Shown piece by piece: positions 14,951 to 32,094 of a DNA stretch of 64,000 nucleotides. Below the pieces are notes generated by a model. That model made no database searches. It was not told the DNA's origin and saw only the letters and a list, made by a program, of their open reading frames with translations. The position numbers and the translations under genes are program-made. The DNA comes from Halarcobacter bivalviorum (GTDB lineage Bacteria > Campylobacterota > Campylobacteria > Campylobacterales > Arcobacteraceae), in NCBI RefSeq assembly GCF_003346815.1, contig NZ_CP031217.1:1054001-1118000 (forward strand), read 5' to 3'. How positions within the stretch are numbered: the stretch's first letter is position 1; every line of letters starts with the position of its first letter.

Positions 14951-16792
14951 TTAAGAAATGAAAACTCTTTTATTTTCCTCTTTTTTTATTTCAGAGAAAT
15001 TATCTAAATAATCTAAATAGCTGATTAGATACTTCCTACTTAAAGGATATTTTTCTTTTAGATTAGAAATATCGATATAACCGTCATTTTTAATGATTCT
15101 TCTCATTTCATTAACTATTTTACTAAGACTTTGAGCATGTATAAAAATGTTATGTTGAAGCCTTATTACACTTTTTTTAGCACAAAGAGCTTTTAAAATA
15201 TTATCTCCCATTTTTCTATCAATATCTAAATCATCATATATATTATAAGGAGCTGTTGGTGTAATATCTTCTTTTTCTAGTCTTTCTAATATTACTTTCT
15301 CTAAACTTTGTTTAAAATCCTCTTTAATTGTAGAATTTTTATACAGTTTTCCCTCTTGTACTAAAAACTTCTCATTTACAAGTTCATCCATTACTAATTT
15401 TATAAAATTCTCACTAGCCCATTTTAGTCTTAGTGCAATAGAAGCTACAGAGAGTAGGGCATATTGATTTTTTTTATAAATATTTGTAATCGTATCTTTG
15501 ATTAGATGTTTTGTCTCTATTGGATATAAAACAAGTGACTCCTCATCAATAAAAACATCAGACAAATCTTTTGCATATTCAAGAGCATTTTCATGGCTAA
15601 GAGCAAATCTTTGAGCAGATGAAACAAGACCTAAACCTTTTTTATGTGCATCAAGTAAAATTCTATAGGCTTTTTCTATTTCTTCTTTTTCTAAAGCTTC
15701 TAAAAGTTTTATTTTCTGACTCTTTTTCATAGGGTCTATAATTGGATTTAAAACAGTTGCCCCTGCAATAGTATCATTTGCTTGTCTAATAATGATTTTC
15801 TCTTTATAGATAGAAAAAATAGGTTCATCTAAACTTAATTGAGCAAAACCACTTTCAAGTTCTAAAGATTCTGTTGAGTTATAAAGTAAAACTCTTCCTT
15901 CTACTTTTTTTGTACCAATAAAAATAGAGTATTTTTGGTTATGTTTTAATTTTTTATTTTTAAGAGTACTAAATGAGATATCAATTTTATCAAAACCTCT
16001 TAAATAACCCTTTTTAGAGATCAAAAAACCTTTTTTTAAATCACTTGTATTTACATTACTTAAATTTATTGCTGTTCTATTTGAGATATTTGATATTTCA
16101 CTATTTTCTCCATGTACTTGAAGATTTTTTACTTTTGCTTCTTTTTTAATATCACAAATAAAAACTTTATCATCTTTTTGTAATGGCTTTCCTAATACTG
16201 TTCCTGTTACAATAGTACCACTTCCAGAAGAAGAGAAAACTCTATCTATATAATATCTAAAGAAGTTTTCTTCCACTTTTGTATTTGCATCTAGAGTAAA
16301 TAGTTTCTCTTTTAATTCATTAATTGAAGCCTCATCATAAATAGAGACTGCTTTTGAAAATAGAAGATTAAAATCATATTCATTTTTAATAAAATCTTCT
16401 ATTTCTTGTTTGTTTTTTTTAAGTGTTTCTTCCTCTACTAAATCTTTTTTAGTAATAGTTAAAATAGCATTTTTAACTCCAAGAAGATTTAAGATTTCTA
16501 AGTGTTCAATTGTTTGTGGCATAATCTTTTCAACAGCACTTACAACAATCATCACACAATCAAAAGAGAATGCTCCTGCAATCATATTTTTAACTAATTT
16601 TTCATGTCCTGGAACATCAATAAAAGCAACATTTTTTTCACCCTTACTTAAGTTTGAAAAACTTAAATCAATAGTGATTCCTCTTTGTTTTTCCTCTTTT
16701 GTTGTGTCACCTTCATAACCATTTAAAGCATGAATTAATGCAGTTTTACCATGGTCAATATGTCCACAAGTTCCAATAATATAGTTATTCAT
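14951..16792 (-). CDS. selB: selenocysteine-specific elongation factor SelB
   Basis: A translation GTPase of 613 residues that carries Sec-tRNA to UGA codons marked by a SECIS hairpin. EF-Tu-like domains come first: G1 GHIDHGKT, G3 DVPGHEK, G4 TKKD, and a domain 2 with GSGTIVTGTV. The last 240 residues or so form the winged-helix repeats that bind the SECIS RNA. The gene overlaps selA by 8 bases. Its clients in this window are fdhA and selD. Confidence 0.96.
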   Translation of the reverse strand: MNNYIIGTCGHIDHGKTALIHALNGYEGDTTKEEKQRGITIDLSFSNLSKGEKNVAFIDVPGHEKLVKNMIAGAFSFDCVMIVVSAVEKIMPQTIEHLEILNLLGVKNAILTITKKDLVEEETLKKNKQEIEDFIKNEYDFNLLFSKAVSIYDEASINELKEKLFTLDANTKVEENFFRYYIDRVFSSSGSGTIVTGTVLGKPLQKDDKVFICDIKKEAKVKNLQVHGENSEISNISNRTAINLSNVNTSDLKKGFLISKKGYLRGFDKIDISFSTLKNKKLKHNQKYSIFIGTKKVEGRVLLYNSTESLELESGFAQLSLDEPIFSIYKEKIIIRQANDTIAGATVLNPIIDPMKKSQKIKLLEALEKEEIEKAYRILLDAHKKGLGLVSSAQRFALSHENALEYAKDLSDVFIDEESLVLYPIETKHLIKDTITNIYKKNQYALLSVASIALRLKWASENFIKLVMDELVNEKFLVQEGKLYKNSTIKEDFKQSLEKVILERLEKEDITPTAPYNIYDDLDIDRKMGDNILKALCAKKSVIRLQHNIFIHAQSLSKIVNEMRRIIKNDGYIDISNLKEKYPLSRKYLISYLDYLDNFSEIKKEENKRVFIS

Positions 16793-18134
16793 TTATAATC
16801 TGTCCTATTTTCTCAATTAAAATATTTATATCATCTTCTAAAATTGTTCTAAAATCTAATAAGAATTTTTCATTTTCAATTCTTCCAATAATATTGTTTT
16901 GTCTAAATATTTTTTCTATTTTATTTGGTTTATAATTTTTAAACTCTATGCTAAGAGCTATTGTAGGAATCTTTTTATTTGGAGTTGTTCCTCCTCCAAT
17001 TACAGTTTTTGTTTCAAGGAGATTACAAGTACAAAAAGAAGAGATTTTTTCTTCTACTTTTTGTGCATTTATTGTTAATTCTTCAACTGTTTTGAAAAGC
17101 ATTTTTAAAGTAGGAATTGAATCAAAATCTTTTAAAAGAATCGATTTTACATTCTCTTCTAAAATAGCAAGAGTTAGTTTATCAACCCTTAACATTCTTA
17201 AAAGTTGATTCTTTTTTAGTTGTTCAATATATTTTTTCTTTCCAACTATAATTCCAGCTTGAACAGAACCTAAAAGTTTGTCTCCTGAAAAGCTAAGTAA
17301 ACTAGGCTTTTGTTTCATATACTCTAATACAGAAGGCTCAGATTCTTTAAGTCCATAGGGTAAATCAATTAGATGCCCACTTCCCATATCATAATAGTCT
17401 ATTACTTCATTTTTTTGTGCTACTTCAATAATCTCTTTAAAAGAAACCTCTTGTGAAAAACCTTCAATAGAGTAGTTTGACTTATGAACTTTCATAAGCA
17501 TTGAAGTGTTTTCATTTATAGCATTTTCATAATCTCTTAGGTGTGTTTTATTAGTTGTACCTATTTCTTTTAAAATAGCTCCACTATTACTCATAACATC
17601 TGGAACTCTAAAGCTTCCACCAATCTCTACAAGTTCACCTCTACTTACTGCAACTTCTTTTCCTTTTGCAAAAGTATTAAGGATTAAAAAAACTGCACTG
17701 GCATTGTTATTTACTATTAAAACATCTTCACATCCAAGAAGTTCACAAAAAACTTTACTAATATGAGAATATCTCTCTCCTCTTTTTCCTTTTTCTAAAT
17801 CATATTCTAAATTATTGTATGAAGTTGCAATATCTCTTGCTTTTTCAAAAACATTTTTATCAATAAGACTTCTTCCTAAATTTGTATGAACAATTACACC
17901 AGTAGCATTTATAACTTTTTGAAGTGAAGGCTTAATAATGTTTTCATATTCAGTTAGAACTTTAGAAATTAGCTCATTTTCATCAATTAAATCAATTTTT
18001 TTATCTAAAATATCACTTCTTAACTCTTCTATTTTATTTTTTATAATAGAAATTATTAAAGAGTTTGATAAATCTTTAAAAGCTTCATTTGAGGCTAATT
18101 TATCTACTTTAGGAATAGATTTTAGTAAAGACAT
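16785..18134 (-). CDS. selA: L-seryl-tRNA(Sec) selenium transferase
   Basis: A PLP enzyme of 449 residues that converts Ser-tRNA(Sec) to Sec-tRNA(Sec) with selenophosphate. The PLP lysine is in SFSGDKLLGSVQAGI; other hallmarks are NATGVIVHTNLGRS near residue 78 and the C-terminal RIENEKFLLDFRT. AAAGGG lies 5 bases before the ATG. It precedes selB with an 8-base overlap. Between its start and selC is a perfect 9-bp inverted repeat that may contain promoter elements for both. Confidence 0.96.
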   Translation of the reverse strand: MSLLKSIPKVDKLASNEAFKDLSNSLIISIIKNKIEELRSDILDKKIDLIDENELISKVLTEYENIIKPSLQKVINATGVIVHTNLGRSLIDKNVFEKARDIATSYNNLEYDLEKGKRGERYSHISKVFCELLGCEDVLIVNNNASAVFLILNTFAKGKEVAVSRGELVEIGGSFRVPDVMSNSGAILKEIGTTNKTHLRDYENAINENTSMLMKVHKSNYSIEGFSQEVSFKEIIEVAQKNEVIDYYDMGSGHLIDLPYGLKESEPSVLEYMKQKPSLLSFSGDKLLGSVQAGIIVGKKKYIEQLKKNQLLRMLRVDKLTLAILEENVKSILLKDFDSIPTLKMLFKTVEELTINAQKVEEKISSFCTCNLLETKTVIGGGTTPNKKIPTIALSIEFKNYKPNKIEKIFRQNNIIGRIENEKFLLDFRTILEDDINILIEKIGQIINE

Positions 18135-18192: not shown

Positions 18193-18292
18193 TGGGGGGT
18201 ATGTGACCCTGGTGGGCACCGCAGGCTTCAACCCTGATCGGCGGTTTTTGTGTAAACGCCGCGGTAGGTTCGATTCCTACACCTTCTCGCCA
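18193..18292 (+). tRNA. selC: tRNA-Sec (anticodon TCA)
   Basis: About 100 bases with a TCA anticodon at 18228-18230 in a CTTCAAC loop closed by CAGG/CCTG. A long GC-rich variable arm (near 18238-18262, CGGCG...CGCCG) and the T arm GTAGG-TTCGATT-CCTAC follow, ending in a genomically encoded CCA at 18290-18292. The acceptor pairs TGGGGGGT with ACCTTCTC, leaving a T-C mismatch at the first position and several G-U pairs, so the exact 5' end could be 18193 or 18194. The gene lies antisense between selD and selA. Confidence 0.9.
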
Positions 18293-18296
18293 AATT

Positions 18297-19331
18297 TTAA
18301 TAAATAATTATTGGCGTAGCCCCTCTTGGAATTACTTCTCCCATAATAGTTGCATATCCGAAAGTTAAATCTTCAACTCTTTTGATATACTCTTTTGCAT
18401 CATCTTTATCCATAGCAATTAATAGACCACCAGAAGTTTGTGCATCACAATATAGTTGATAACACTTATCTGTAGCACACATAATTGTTGTTTTATCTTC
18501 AAGATATTTCATATTTCTTTTTGTACCACCAGGAACAACACCTTGGTCTGCAAAATCTTGAGCTTCTGGTAAAACAGGAACAATCCCACAATGAATTGCA
18601 AAAGAGTTAAAAGGACCAACTGCTTCTAAAGCATGACCTAATAAACCAAAACCTGTAATATCAGTACAAGCACTAACATCATAATCTCTTAAAAGCTTTG
18701 CTGGTAAATAGTTTAATGCTTCCATTACTCTTACTGCTTCACTTTTTGAACTTTCACCTAATAAATCTCTTTTAATAGCTGTTGTTAAAATCCCAATACC
18801 TATTGGTTTTGTTAGTACAAGAACATGACCAATTTTTGCAGTATTGTTTCTTAATATTTTATCTGGATGTACTAATCCTGTAACAGATAAACCATAATAC
18901 ATTTCAGGTGCTTCAATTGTATGTCCACCCATTAATAATCCACCACACTCTTGGATTTTTTCATTACCACCTCTAAGTATCTCTCTTAATACTTCAATTC
19001 CATGGTTTTTTCTATCGAAGCCAACAATATTTAAAGCTGTTTTTACATCTGCTCCCATTGCAAAAGCATCTGATAAAGAGTTTGCAGCAGCTATTTTCCC
19101 ATATACATACGGGTCATCAACAACTGGAGTAATAAAATCTAAAGTTTGTACTAAAGCCTCTTCATCATTTAGTTTATATACTGAAGCATCATCGTTATTT
19201 TCAAATCCAACAAGTACTTTGTCATCACACGGTACTAAACTGCAAATAGTTTGTTTAAGGTCACCCGGACCCATTTTTGCAGCTCAACCAGCAGCTTGAA
19301 CGAATTTAGTTAATTTATATTCTTCATTCAT
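18297..19331 (-). CDS. selD: selenide, water dikinase (selenophosphate synthetase), itself a selenoprotein
   Basis: Makes selenophosphate from selenide and ATP, the selenium donor for SelA. The uninterrupted frame starts only at an internal Met (19274), but upstream the frame continues through a single TGA (19284-19286) to ATG at 19331. That ATG has TAGGA at 19338-19342, 6 bases away. Read through, the N terminus contains A-A-G-U-A-A-K-M-G-P-G-D-L, the SelD active-site signature with Sec at codon 16 where other SelD proteins have Cys or Sec, followed by the catalytic Lys. The protein is 344 residues, normal for SelD; a start at 19274 would lose the catalytic pair. A SECIS-like hairpin follows the TGA. 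It converges on selC. Confidence 0.95.
19259..19286 (-). promoter_or_regulatory. Sec codon and bacterial SECIS-like hairpin of selD
   Basis: In the mRNA sense, TGA (19286-19284) is followed by 12 bases and then a stem GGTC/GACC (19271-19268 with 19262-19259) closing a 5-base CGGGT loop. A G-U pair at 19272/19258 may extend it. Spacing and loop size resemble the fdhA element here and known bacterial SECIS elements. Confidence 0.7.
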
Positions 19332-19410
19332 AAAAAATCCTAATTTGATTTATGGAAAAGGTATAATAAATAGAAGTGTCTAAAGCAGAGTAAAGATAAT
19401 ATTTATGTAT

Positions 19411-19561: not shown

Positions 19562-19640
19562 GGACATTAAAATTAAAAAATGCATGCAAATTAATTTATG
19601 ACTACATATGCTTCAAAACAATAAAAATTTTGGAGTACAA

Positions 19641-20486
19641 ATGAAGAAACTACTGTTTATTGCACTATTATGTGTAAGCTCACTTTTTGCGAAAGATTTT
19701 GCATTTACTGCAATTCCTGATCAAGACGAAACTAAATTAAAAGAGAGATTCTCTTTATTAGCTGACTATCTGTCAAAAGAGTTAGGTGTAAATGCTAAAT
19801 TTATCCCTGTTAAATCATATTCTGCATCAATTGCAGCTTTTAGAAATAATCAAGTTCAATTAGCTTGGTTTGGTGGATTATCTGGTGTTAGAGCAAGATT
19901 AATTGTTCCTAATGCAGTTGCAATTGCACAAGGTGTTGAAGATCCAAACTTCCACTCATTTTTAATTGCAAATACTTCAACTGGTTTAGAAAAATCTGAA
20001 AATGTTCCTGCAGCAATTGAAGGTAAAACTTTTACTTTTGGTTCAAAAGGTTCTACTTCTGGAAGATTAATGCCAGAATATTTTATTAGACAAGCATTTA
20101 ATAAAGCACCTGAAGATATTTTCTCAAAAGTTGGATTCTCTGGAAATCACTCTAAAACAATTGCATTAGTTCAAAGTGGAGCTTATGAAGTTGGTGCTGT
20201 TAACTATAAAGTTTGGCATAGAGAATTAAAAGAGGGTAAAATTGATACTTCAAAAGTAAAAATTATTTATCAAACTCCTGGTTATCCTGATTATCAATTC
20301 ACTGCAAGAGGTGATTTAGACGCAACTTATGGTGAAGGTTTTACTAAAAAATTACAAGAAGCATTAATTGCTATTAAAGATGAAAAAATCTTAAATGCTT
20401 TCCCTAGAAGTGGATTTATCAAAGCTTCAAATAAAGATTTTGAACCAGTATTAGAGACTGGAAGAAAAATAGGGATTATTGACTAA
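19641..20486 (+). CDS. PhnD-like periplasmic binding protein, probable selenium oxyanion importer
   Basis: 281 residues: a cleavable signal (LLFIALLCVSSLFAKD) and a PhnD/PtxB-type binding fold with FTAIPDQDE, AWFGGLSGVRAR and GSTSGRLMPEYF. The superfamily binds phosphonate, phosphite or related oxyanions; a clade found with selD is annotated as putative selenate-binding. Divergence from selD and the absence of any phosphonate-degradation gene make selenium the better guess, but the ligand is not proven. GGAG at 19632-19635 is 5 bases before ATG 19641; the in-frame ATG at 19608 has no such site and would precede the signal. Confidence 0.82.
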   Translation: MKKLLFIALLCVSSLFAKDFAFTAIPDQDETKLKERFSLLADYLSKELGVNAKFIPVKSYSASIAAFRNNQVQLAWFGGLSGVRARLIVPNAVAIAQGVEDPNFHSFLIANTSTGLEKSENVPAAIEGKTFTFGSKGSTSGRLMPEYFIRQAFNKAPEDIFSKVGFSGNHSKTIALVQSGAYEVGAVNYKVWHRELKEGKIDTSKVKIIYQTPGYPDYQFTARGDLDATYGEGFTKKLQEALIAIKDEKILNAFPRSGFIKASNKDFEPVLETGRKIGIID

Positions 20487-21147
20487 AATGGCATTTAATC
20501 TTGTTAATGAATCAATATACTATGATAGTTTTAAGGCTATTGACTCTTTAACACTAAATATTCAAAAGGGCGAAAAAGTAGCTCTTTTGGGTAAAAGTGG
20601 AAGTGGAAAATCAACACTTTTAAAAAGAATGTTTGAGTTACAAAAAGACTCTTCTTCTTATATTCCTCAAGAGTTAGGCTTAGTAAATAATCTATCAGTT
20701 TTTCACAATGTATATATTTCAAAACTTGATACAAATTCATTTTTTTATAATATTAGAAATTTTATTTATCCATGTAAAACGCAAGTAAGTGGAATTTCTA
20801 ATATTCTAAAAGAGTTATTACTTGAAGATAAGCTTTTTACAAAATCTCTAAATCTTTCTGGTGGTCAAAGACAAAGAGTTGCAATTGCAAGAGCTATGTA
20901 TGGACAAAATGAGATTTTGTTAGCTGATGAACCAGTTTCAGCTTTAGATGAATTTTTGTCAAAAAGAGTGATTGAAAAGTTAAATAGCTCTTTTGAAACA
21001 GTTGTATGTACAATGCACAATGTAGATTTAGCAATAGAAAACTTTGATAGAGTAATAGGTTTAAAAGATGGAGAGGTTTTAGTAGATAAAGCTTCATCTG
21101 CCCTTACAAGCGAAGATAGAAACAGATTATATTATGCTACAAAGTAA
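20479..21147 (+). CDS. PhnC-like ABC transporter ATPase
   Basis: 222 residues with Walker A (GKSGSGKST), a Q-loop (SSYIPQE), the ABC signature (LSGGQRQRVAIARA) and Walker B (ILLADEPVSALDE). It energises the neighbouring permease. Start choice is uncertain: TTG at 20479 overlaps the binding-protein stop and has AGGG 4 bases before it; ATG at 20488 has only a distant site. It overlaps the permease gene by 14 bases, so the three genes form one operon. Confidence 0.87.
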   Translation: MTKMAFNLVNESIYYDSFKAIDSLTLNIQKGEKVALLGKSGSGKSTLLKRMFELQKDSSSYIPQELGLVNNLSVFHNVYISKLDTNSFFYNIRNFIYPCKTQVSGISNILKELLLEDKLFTKSLNLSGGQRQRVAIARAMYGQNEILLADEPVSALDEFLSKRVIEKLNSSFETVVCTMHNVDLAIENFDRVIGLKDGEVLVDKASSALTSEDRNRLYYATK

Positions 21148-22615
21148 GAGCTTAAATGTTTCAGTTATTTTTATAGCTGTTGCACTTGTTTCATTTATTT
21201 TTGCAGATTTTTCTATCTCAACGATTGACCCTTTTATGGAGTTAAAAAACTTTTCTTTAGCCCTTTTTCAAATAGATATTTCTCAAACACCTAAGTTAAT
21301 TCCAGCACTTTTTACAACAGTTTCTATTGCTATTGTTGCTATGCTTATCTCTTCAATTTTAGGTTTTATTTTAGCTTTAGTTTTTGAAAACTTTTTTGTA
21401 CGAACTACCTTAGCTTTCACAAGAGCAATACATGAACTTTTTTGGGCTTTGATTTTTTTACAAATCTTTGGATTAAATACTTTAACAGCTCTTTTAGCAA
21501 TTATAATTCCTTATAGTGCTATTTTAGCAAAGGTTTATGCAGAGATATTGCAAGAGCATGATACTTTTCCAAAAGAGTTAAAAGGAAAAGCAAAAGCCTC
21601 TTATTATCTTTATACAAAAATCCCAGATGCTTTACCTCATTTAGTTGCTTATACTTTTTATAGATTTGAGTGTGCTTTAAGGTCAACTGCAATCTTAGGA
21701 TTTGTAGGGATTACTACTTTAGGTTATTATCTATCTTCATCTTTTATGCAAGGTTATTATAATGAGGTTTGGTTATTATTGATTATGTTTTATATCATCA
21801 TTGCAACGATTAGATGGTGGATAAATAAATATACAGTAATACCTGCAATTTTGGCTTCATTTTTTTACTTAGATGATTTTGGTAATGTAAATATGGATAA
21901 TTTTATTAGATTTATTACTAGTGATATAATTCCTCATCCTATCAAAACCGATAAACCTTTTTCAGAAGTTGTATCTTGGTTTGAAGCTATTTTTAGAGAT
22001 GAGATTTTAGTAGGGGTTTTTAATACTATTTTGTTAACTCAAATCTCACTTGTATTAACAGCTATCTTAGCTTTAATTACTTTTCCTCTTGTTTCAAAAA
22101 AATTTACTAATAAGTTTTTTAGAACTCTTTCTCATATTTTCTTAGTAGTTCTTAGGTCTACTCCTGAATATATCTTAGCCTATTTATTTTTACAAATTTT
22201 TGGACCATCTATGCTTCCAGCAGCACTTGCTCTAATGCTTCACAATGGAGCTATTATTGGATTTTTAATGGGGCAACAAACAGATGAATTAGAGTTTAGA
22301 TTAGATGTAACAAAAAAGAGAAATGAACTTTATTTATATGAGGTATTACCACGTATTTATTCTCAATTCTTAGCTTTTTTATTTTATAGATGGGAAATAA
22401 TTATGAGAGAATCAGCTATTTTAGGAATCCTTGGAGTTGCTACTTTAGGATTTTATATAGATTCTGCTATTGCTGATTTTAGACTTGATAAGATGATGTT
22501 ACTTCTAGTAGTAACTGCTTTATTAAATATCTTTATTGATTTAATCTCTAAAAAGAGTAGGGAGTATTTAAAAGTTGAAAAGAGTATTACCTCTTGTGGC
22601 TGTGATTTAAAATAG
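21134..22615 (+). CDS. fused two-domain PhnE-like ABC permease
   Basis: 493 residues with two homologous permease halves (about 40-245 and 285-480), each with a binding-protein-dependent transport fold and an ATPase-docking region (YRFECALRSTAILGFVG and YRWEIIMRESAILGILG). Each half matches a single PhnE subunit, so this is a tandem fusion giving a one-chain channel. With the upstream binding protein and ATPase it should import a small oxyanion, probably selenate or selenite by context. The protein ends in a Cys pair (TSCGCDLK) whose role is unknown. Confidence 0.85.
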   Translation: MLQSKSLNVSVIFIAVALVSFIFADFSISTIDPFMELKNFSLALFQIDISQTPKLIPALFTTVSIAIVAMLISSILGFILALVFENFFVRTTLAFTRAIHELFWALIFLQIFGLNTLTALLAIIIPYSAILAKVYAEILQEHDTFPKELKGKAKASYYLYTKIPDALPHLVAYTFYRFECALRSTAILGFVGITTLGYYLSSSFMQGYYNEVWLLLIMFYIIIATIRWWINKYTVIPAILASFFYLDDFGNVNMDNFIRFITSDIIPHPIKTDKPFSEVVSWFEAIFRDEILVGVFNTILLTQISLVLTAILALITFPLVSKKFTNKFFRTLSHIFLVVLRSTPEYILAYLFLQIFGPSMLPAALALMLHNGAIIGFLMGQQTDELEFRLDVTKKRNELYLYEVLPRIYSQFLAFLFYRWEIIMRESAILGILGVATLGFYIDSAIADFRLDKMMLLLVVTALLNIFIDLISKKSREYLKVEKSITSCGCDLK

Positions 22616-29292: not shown

Positions 29293-32094
29293 ATGAATAT
29301 GCTTAAAAGCTTTGGAAGAAGAAGCTTCTTAAAGATGGCTTCACTTGCAACAGCTGTTACAGCAACTTCTGCCTTTGCTAGTACAAAAACGGTACTTAGA
29401 GATGCGACTGAGGAAGAGATTAAAAATCCATTCCCTGGGTCAAAGCTTGTAAAGACAATTTGTACGCATTGTTCAGTAGGTTGTGGTGTAATTGCTGAAG
29501 TTCAAAACGGTGTATGGGTAAGACAAGAAGTTGCTCAAGATCACCCTATTAGTCATGGAGGTCACTGTTGTAAAGGTGCTGATATGATTGATAAAATTAG
29601 AGCAACTAATAGATTACAATATCCAATTGAAAAAGTTAATGGAGCTTGGAAAAGATTAAAATGGGATGATGCTATGAGCAAAATCTCTGATAAACTTATG
29701 GCTCTAAGAGAACAATATGGTCCTGATTCAGTACAATTTTTAGGATCTGCTAAAGTTAGTAATGAGCAAGCTTTCTATATTAGAAAATTTGCTGCTATGT
29801 TTGGAACGAATAATATAGATCACCAAGCTAGAATTTGACATAGTCCAACAGTTGCCGGTGTGGCAAATACATGGGGTTATGGAGCTATGACTAATCACTT
29901 AGGTGATATGCAAAATTCAAAAGCTATTATTATTTTCGGAGCAAACCCAGCTTCTAACCACCCGATTTCTATGCAACATATTTTAAAAGCAAAGGAACAA
30001 AACGGGGCAAAAATTATTGTTGTTGATCCAAGATTTACTAAAACTGCTGCTAAATCTGATATCTATTGTAGAATTAGAACAGGTACAGATATCGCATTTA
30101 TGTATGGTATGATCAGACTAATCAAAGAGAATGGTTGGTATGACAAATCATTTATTGCAGATAGAGTTTATGGTATGGATGAAATCTTCAAAGAGTGTGA
30201 ACAATATACTCCTGAAGTAGTTGAAGATATTACTGGATGTCCTAAAGAGATGCTTATTCAGGCTACTACTGCATTTGCAGCAGCTGACCCAGGTGCATTA
30301 ATTTGGAATCAAGGTTGGACACAACATACTATCGGTTCTTCAAATACAAGATTAGGTTCTATTTTACAATTAGTACTTGGTAACATGGGTAAACCAGGTG
30401 GTGGATGTAACATTCTAAGAGGTCACGATAACGTACAAGGTTCTACTGACTTAGGTTGTTTATCACACACATTACCAGGATATTATGGTTTAAGTGAAGG
30501 TTCTTGGAAATACTTTGCTAAACAATGGAACGTAGATTATGACTGGTTAAAAATGAGATTCAAATCTCAAGAAATGATGCAAAAACCAGGATACAGTTTA
30601 TCATTATGGATTCACGGTGTAAATGAAAAAGAGAATGAAGCTAATAATGCTGGAGCTCCTTTAAAAGCACTTGTTTGTATTGGTAACGGTATTTCAACAA
30701 TTACTCAAACACATAAAGTAAAAGAAGCATTAGACAACTTAGATTTAGTTGTATTTATTGATCCATATGTAAATGATGCAGCAGTTATTACTACAAGAGG
30801 TGATAATATGTTCTTATTACCAGCAGCTTCACAAGTTGAGACTGAAGGTACAGTTGTAAATACTGCAAGAACTGCTCAATGGAGATATAAAGTTGTTGAT
30901 CCTTTATATGAAGCAAGAACAGACCACGATATCTTATTTGACTTTGCTAAGAGAATGGGATTCTATAAAGAGTTTGTTGCTGGTATGGGTAAAGGTGAAA
31001 ACTTTAAATGGCCAGAAGATGCTACTAATGAAATTGCAAGAAGTTTAAAAACTATTGGAATGCAAGGTAGAACGGCTGAAAGAATTAAAAAACATACTGA
31101 TAATTGGCACTTATTTAACTCTACATCTTTAAAAGGTAGAGGTCCAGTTACTAAAGAGTACTATGGTTTACCATGGCCTTGTTGGGATGAAAAACACCCT
31201 GGAAGTCCAGTATTATATAATGTAAACTTACCAGTATCTCAAGGTGGATTAGGATTTAGAGCTAGATTCGGTACAGAAAGAAATGGTGAAAGTTTATTAG
31301 CAGCTAATGGTGTTGCACCAGTTGGTTCTAAAGTTAAAGGTGGTTATGCAGAAATCACTTCTAAAAATATTGAAGAACTTGCAGGTATCAAATTAACTGA
31401 TGAAGAGAGAAAAGCAGTTGAAGGTAAAAACTGGAAAACTGATGATAGTGGTATTTTAGTTAAATATGCATTACAAGCAGGACTTGCTCCTTATGGAAAT
31501 GCAAGAGCTAGAACTATTGTTTGGAACTTTAAAGATAATATTCCTAAACATAGAGAGCCATTACACTCATTTAGACCTGATTTAGTTAAAAAATATCCAG
31601 CTATTGATGACTTAAAGAGCCATTATAGAACAAATGTTAGATATAAATCTGAGCAAAATGCACAAGTATGGGTAAATGATTATCCAGTAAATATTGTTTC
31701 AGGAAGAGTTGTTGAGCACATGGGAACAGGTACAGAGACAAGAGCTTCTAAATATTTAGCTGAATTATCTCCTGAAATGTACGGTGAAGTACACCCAGAA
31801 TTAGCTGCAAAACTTGGACTTAGAGATGGTGAAATGATGTGGGTTCATGGAACAGGTGGAGGAAAAATCAAAATTAAATGTGTACACAGTTTAAGAGTAG
31901 ATGAAAACTCAGTATTCTTACCTCAAAACTTCTCTGGTATCTGGAGTGGTGAGCATTTAGGTAAGAGATATCCATCAGCTACAGCACCATATGCATTTGG
32001 TGAGAGTTCTAACCAAGTTACAAGTTATGGTTACGATCAAGAAACATCTTGTCCAGAGACTAAATGTTCTCTAGTAAGATTAGAAAGAGCATAG
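29293..32094 (+). CDS. fdhA: formate dehydrogenase catalytic subunit, selenocysteine-containing
   Basis: Oxidises formate to CO2 on a bis-MGD molybdenum or tungsten centre in the periplasm. The frame is interrupted once, by TGA at 29836-29838; read as Sec it gives 933 residues with U182 in A-R-I-U-H-S-P-T, the expected metal ligand followed by His. The N terminus has a Tat motif (GRRSFLK) and a [4Fe-4S] site (C57, C60, C64, C92 or C93). Sequence similarity continues without break on both sides of the TGA, and a SECIS-like hairpin follows it. GGAG lies 6 bases before the ATG. fdhB starts 9 bases after its stop. Confidence 0.97.
29836..29866 (+). promoter_or_regulatory. Sec codon and bacterial SECIS-like hairpin of fdhA
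   Basis: TGA at 29836-29838 is followed after 13 bases by a stem TTGCC (29852-29856) and GGCAA (29862-29866) closing a GGTGT loop. Distance and 5-base loop match bacterial SECIS elements read by SelB. Confidence 0.8.

Follow-up and report, generated by a model that had tools for sequence, protein, structure and literature searches.

The window, as we call the whole 64,000-nucleotide stretch of Halarcobacter bivalviorum DNA analyzed here, holds everything required for reading UGA as selenocysteine (Sec), namely a tRNA-Sec gene, selA, and selB (Table 1). The tRNA-Sec gene is convergent with selD, which encodes selenide-water dikinase (SelD), and lies 8 nucleotides from the selD stop codon. The binding protein of the nearby transporter matched TIGR04553 ("putative selenate ABC transporter substrate-binding protein") with 365 bits against a cut-off of 250, and its partners are PhnC- and PhnE-like. 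The window also contains a client selenoprotein gene, fdhA, which a plain list of open reading frames splits in two at the Sec TGA. Its read-through translation has the motif ARI-U-HSPTVAG, a hairpin follows the TGA, and the product matched TIGR01591 with 463 bits and one TGA, a partial match (1-480) that falls under the curated cut-off of 666.

Table 1. Coordinates of selD, its sequence elements, and associated genes in the window
Feature	Position	Strand	Details
selB, Sec-specific elongation factor with SelB winged helix	14951..16792	-	TIGR00475, 290 bits; PF09107
selA, Sec synthase	16785..18134	-	TIGR00474, 570 bits
tRNA-Sec (selC)	18193..18288	+	ARAGORN, anticodon TCA; Rfam RF01852, 48 bits (cut-off 47)
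selD, selenide-water dikinase	18297..19331	-	344 aa with TGA translated as U; Sec at residue 16
SECIS hairpin GGGUC-CGGGU-GACCU	19258..19272	-	Fold and comparison of UGA-type sequences
Internal ATG (Met20), false start in a plain gene finder	19272..19274	-	ORF list; relatives start upstream
In-frame TGA, codon 16, read as Sec16	19284..19286	-	TGA/TGT/TGC exchange in relatives; aligns with E. coli Cys17
TAGGA, Shine-Dalgarno-like	19338..19342	-	6 nt spacing to the ATG at 19331
Putative selenate ABC transporter: binding protein, ATPase, permease	19608..22615	+	Divergent from selD
fdhA, formate dehydrogenase alpha subunit, client selenoprotein	29293..32094	+	In-frame TGA at 29836-29838

Read directly from the sequence, selD runs from an ATG at 19331-19329 to a stop codon at 18299-18297 with a single in-frame TGA, and the coordinates and the motif AAG-U-AAKMGPGDL reported in an earlier note on this DNA proved exact. 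That note had also described an ATG upstream of the TGA with a well-placed TAGGA, and the spacing bears this out; among 20 relatives found by protein search, most carry a purine-rich GAGG or AAGG at the matching position. The mechanical open reading frame covers only 18297-19274 and encodes 325 amino acids, so that, as foreseen, a gene finder trims 19 codons and removes the catalytic residue, Sec16, together with Lys19.

With the TGA read through, the product matched TIGR00476 with 354 bits (cut-off, 125) over positions 1 to 310 of the 311 in the profile, and the match begins at residue 6, upstream of the TGA. A search of the organism's own genome found a single SelD above the family cut-off, with one TGA inside. 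Both the full-length match above the curated cut-off and the presence of Cys/Sec and Lys in the N-terminal glycine-rich loop place the protein in the SelD family, and its best relatives in the PDB are the SelD proteins of E. coli and Aquifex. The stretch preceding the TGA (MNEEYKLTKFVQAAG) was conserved in all 20 relatives of the protein search, each of which had ATG or GTG as its start codon at the equivalent upstream place. Given this conservation and a profile match that starts at residue 6, the read-through frame is not a product of chance.

An open reading frame does begin at Met20, and the upstream TGA might accordingly be taken as a true stop in front of a 325-residue SelD that lacks the catalytic residue. 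Relatives, however, conserve the upstream residues, Cys types with an open frame and the same start among them, and TAGGA stands before the upstream ATG. Initiation at Met20 would moreover strip both Cys/Sec and Lys from the sole SelD of a genome whose fdhA contains a UGA. The alignment that had been proposed as a check showed family members beginning upstream, with no case of a start at the internal Met, and we consider this explanation very improbable.

Selenoproteins are classically recognized by an exchange of UGA and Cys codons at the active-site position. At codon 16 of 84 close selD sequences, the window's included, we found TGA in 62, TGT in 19, TGC in 2, and TTA in 1. In the Cys-type relatives the frame is open throughout and the start is the same as in the Sec types. 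The selD trees need about seven to eight Sec/Cys changes, with several independent switches. The context of the TGA is LTKFVQAAG-U-AAKMGPGDL, in which the Lys19 codon occupies 19277-19275, and Sec16 and Lys19 align with Cys17 and Lys20 of E. coli SelD (PDB 3u0o). SelD is present in 283 of the 397 genomes of the phylum and in 73 of the 104 genomes of the window's family, where one TGA was present in 54 of 74 places (as counted from the table of results); TGA also occurs at the same selD codon in other families of the phylum.

The one TTA (Leu) at the Sec codon lies at 5046-5048 of L003, on the same contig as L101, in a genome of the window's genus (G292) that still has selB and tRNA-Sec as well as several fdhA genes with a UGA. 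Either the metagenome assembly contains a sequencing error here, or SelD lost its function recently.

Since TGA is one base from TGT and TGC, the window's codon could itself be a Cys codon disabled by mutation or misread in sequencing, and the TTA in G292 indicates that point changes occur here. Against this, 62 of 84 sequences, as well as other families of the phylum, share the TGA at this codon, and the hairpin that follows it is conserved, which makes an accident of this kind scarcely credible.

That hairpin has 5 bp in the RNA fold, and its loop, CGGGU, begins 16 nucleotides after the UGA with a G as the second base. A 45-nucleotide single-sequence fold of selD was no more stable than shuffled sequences (z, 0.69), and codon sampling indicated that the amino acids GPGDL alone give such a stem with a probability of about 0.43, so the evidence for the hairpin comes from comparison and from the CCG codon. 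Among 64 distinct UGA-type selD sequences, four of the five pairs are possible in every one and the fifth in all but one (63 of 64 have all five), and the loop G is conserved. The pairs form in 98 to 100% of these sequences, versus 14 to 62% when the hairpin is slid by 1 to 3 bases. The middle pair has changed from G-C or G-U to C-G in 11 UGA-type sequences, a compensatory swap (GGT..GAY to GCT..GAG) in which Gly becomes Ala and Asp becomes Glu together. The loop G comes from a Pro codon that is CCG in all 19 UGA-type selD genes of the Arcobacteraceae, whereas CCG makes up about 4% of Pro codons elsewhere in the Arcobacteraceae selD genes compared. The E. coli-like Cys type (GCGCK) showed no such hairpin, with 21% of cells paired.

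What is expected of a bacterial selenoprotein gene is thus found here, with UGA/Cys exchange, a SECIS hairpin that has a G among its first two loop bases, and selA, selB, and tRNA-Sec in the genome. Readthrough of the UGA with some other amino acid, independently of SelB, has a precedent in the non-Sec UGA readthrough proposed for an SPS gene in hymenopteran insects (PMC4561486). The complete bacterial Sec machinery and the SECIS hairpin nevertheless exist here, relatives show only Sec and Cys codons at the position apart from the one TTA, and we give such decoding almost no weight. The UGA of selD almost certainly specifies selenocysteine rather than termination; the active-site Sec put forward in the earlier note is supported by alignment, by the adjacent Sec machinery, and by the conserved hairpin.

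The native selD gene of Aquifex aeolicus encodes Sec at the corresponding position. Its crystallized chain (PDB 2yye, 2zod, and 2zau) has a near-identical motif, SSG-C-AAKVGPGDL, with Cys where the window's protein has Sec16; the 2yye chain shows SSGCAAKVGPGDL at the place aligned with the Sec16 motif. E. coli SelD (PDB 3u0o) belongs to the same family but is a Cys enzyme, with a second Cys (GCGCK) where the window's SelD has Ala (GUAAK), and its type is without the SECIS hairpin that the window's selD has. Sec-containing SelD was described in the note as known from other bacteria, and it has in fact been reported within the window's own class (PMC4607533, PMC4561486, PMC1794560). It was described for Epsilonproteobacteria in 2015 (PMC4607533), with SelD as both part of the machinery and a selenoprotein, a complete set of selA, selB, and tRNA-Sec, a short SECIS hairpin with an invariant loop G just past the UGA, and frequent misannotation of such genes. 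The present case differs from these only in species and in nothing of substance. How Sec- and Cys-SelD evolved, and the bacterial SECIS of SelD, have likewise been treated (PMC4561486). Because Sec-SelD is thus established, and described for this group, the reading of the window's selD is correct but ordinary.

We put the probability at roughly 0.97 that selD encodes a Sec-containing selenophosphate synthetase in which SelB and the SECIS hairpin direct insertion at residue 16, Sec16 and Lys19 serve in catalysis, and the product feeds back on SelD itself and on FdhA. This reading builds on the gene, its UGA, the upstream start, the conservation of the hairpin, the full machinery, and the client gene, all observed here. 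By analogy with established SelD biology, SelB loaded with Sec-tRNA(Sec) would bind the hairpin just past the UGA and place Sec at residue 16; SelD would then use Sec16 and Lys19 to convert selenide and ATP into selenophosphate, from which SelA would supply further Sec-tRNA to the synthesis of both SelD and FdhA. Since the only SelD of the genome carries the Sec UGA, SelD needs its own product to be made, and the self-dependent loop asserted at the outset follows. A machine serving SelD as its sole selenoprotein is ruled out by the TGA-containing fdhA in the same window, so that SelD here has at least two clients, itself and FdhA. Neither a SelW-like gene nor a tRNA 2-selenouridine synthase was found in the genome.

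Other genomes show different complements. One (G328; L077 and L051) has both a UGA-type SelD and a Cys-type SelD like that of E. coli, a combination that would abolish the self-dependence, and another, of the window's genus (G425), has two UGA-type selD genes (L171 and L200). L201, in G299, is a SelD-like open frame from the same family that has no recognizable N-terminal Sec/Cys-Lys motif and may be a degenerate or repurposed SelD.

Most Cys-type selD genes of the window's family retain the hairpin. In nine such species (L108, L110, L112, L114 to L118, and L120), the five hairpin codons, +5 to +9 after the Cys codon, read GGT CCG GGG GAT CTA without a single synonymous difference, although three of them (CCG, GGG, and CTA) are rare; codon differences numbered 0 of 180 at these codons versus 2386 of 8121 (29%) elsewhere. 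In two sister species (L109 and L119), the hairpin is dissolved at all five codons (GGA CC[A/T] GGA GAG TTA). Nearly all of these Cys-type genomes retain selB and tRNA-Sec, with a TGA-containing fdhA gene in the cases checked. Recombination of a Cys-type 5' segment is an unlikely cause of the identical hairpins, since the flanking codons follow the Sec-type sisters of each gene, which would limit the exchange to a tract of about 30 bp. At the foot of the hairpin, a Leu codon with A as its third base tended to accompany Cys, a link that is suggestive only (P = 0.0625 in a sign test on 5 independent pairs).

Remnant SECIS-like structures after Cys codons were noted in 2006 in genes converted from Sec to Cys, selD among them (PMC1794560). 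The Cys-type relatives here likewise keep the hairpin; that they do so even at synonymous sites, in nine species that have diverged, hints at selection rather than a mere remnant. Selection on such remnants, beyond the observation of them, may be new. The former SECIS hairpin might still have a role besides Sec insertion, for example by letting SelB sense Sec-tRNA to tune selD translation or by keeping the gene one mutation from a functional Sec form. We think this unlikely, given shared descent, the origin of the nine species from about two conversion events, and neighboring codons that are also well conserved. A literature search found no paper on point concerning SelB repression via SECIS-like leaders.

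In its self-dependence, the selD gene of the window is an ordinary example of a loop already known. For annotation, it illustrates that the true start of SelD and its catalytic residue are easily lost, and with them the evidence of selenocysteine use. If SelB-dependent control of selenophosphate supply were true of the Cys-type relatives, it would mean that a SECIS hairpin in a coding region is used without Sec insertion.
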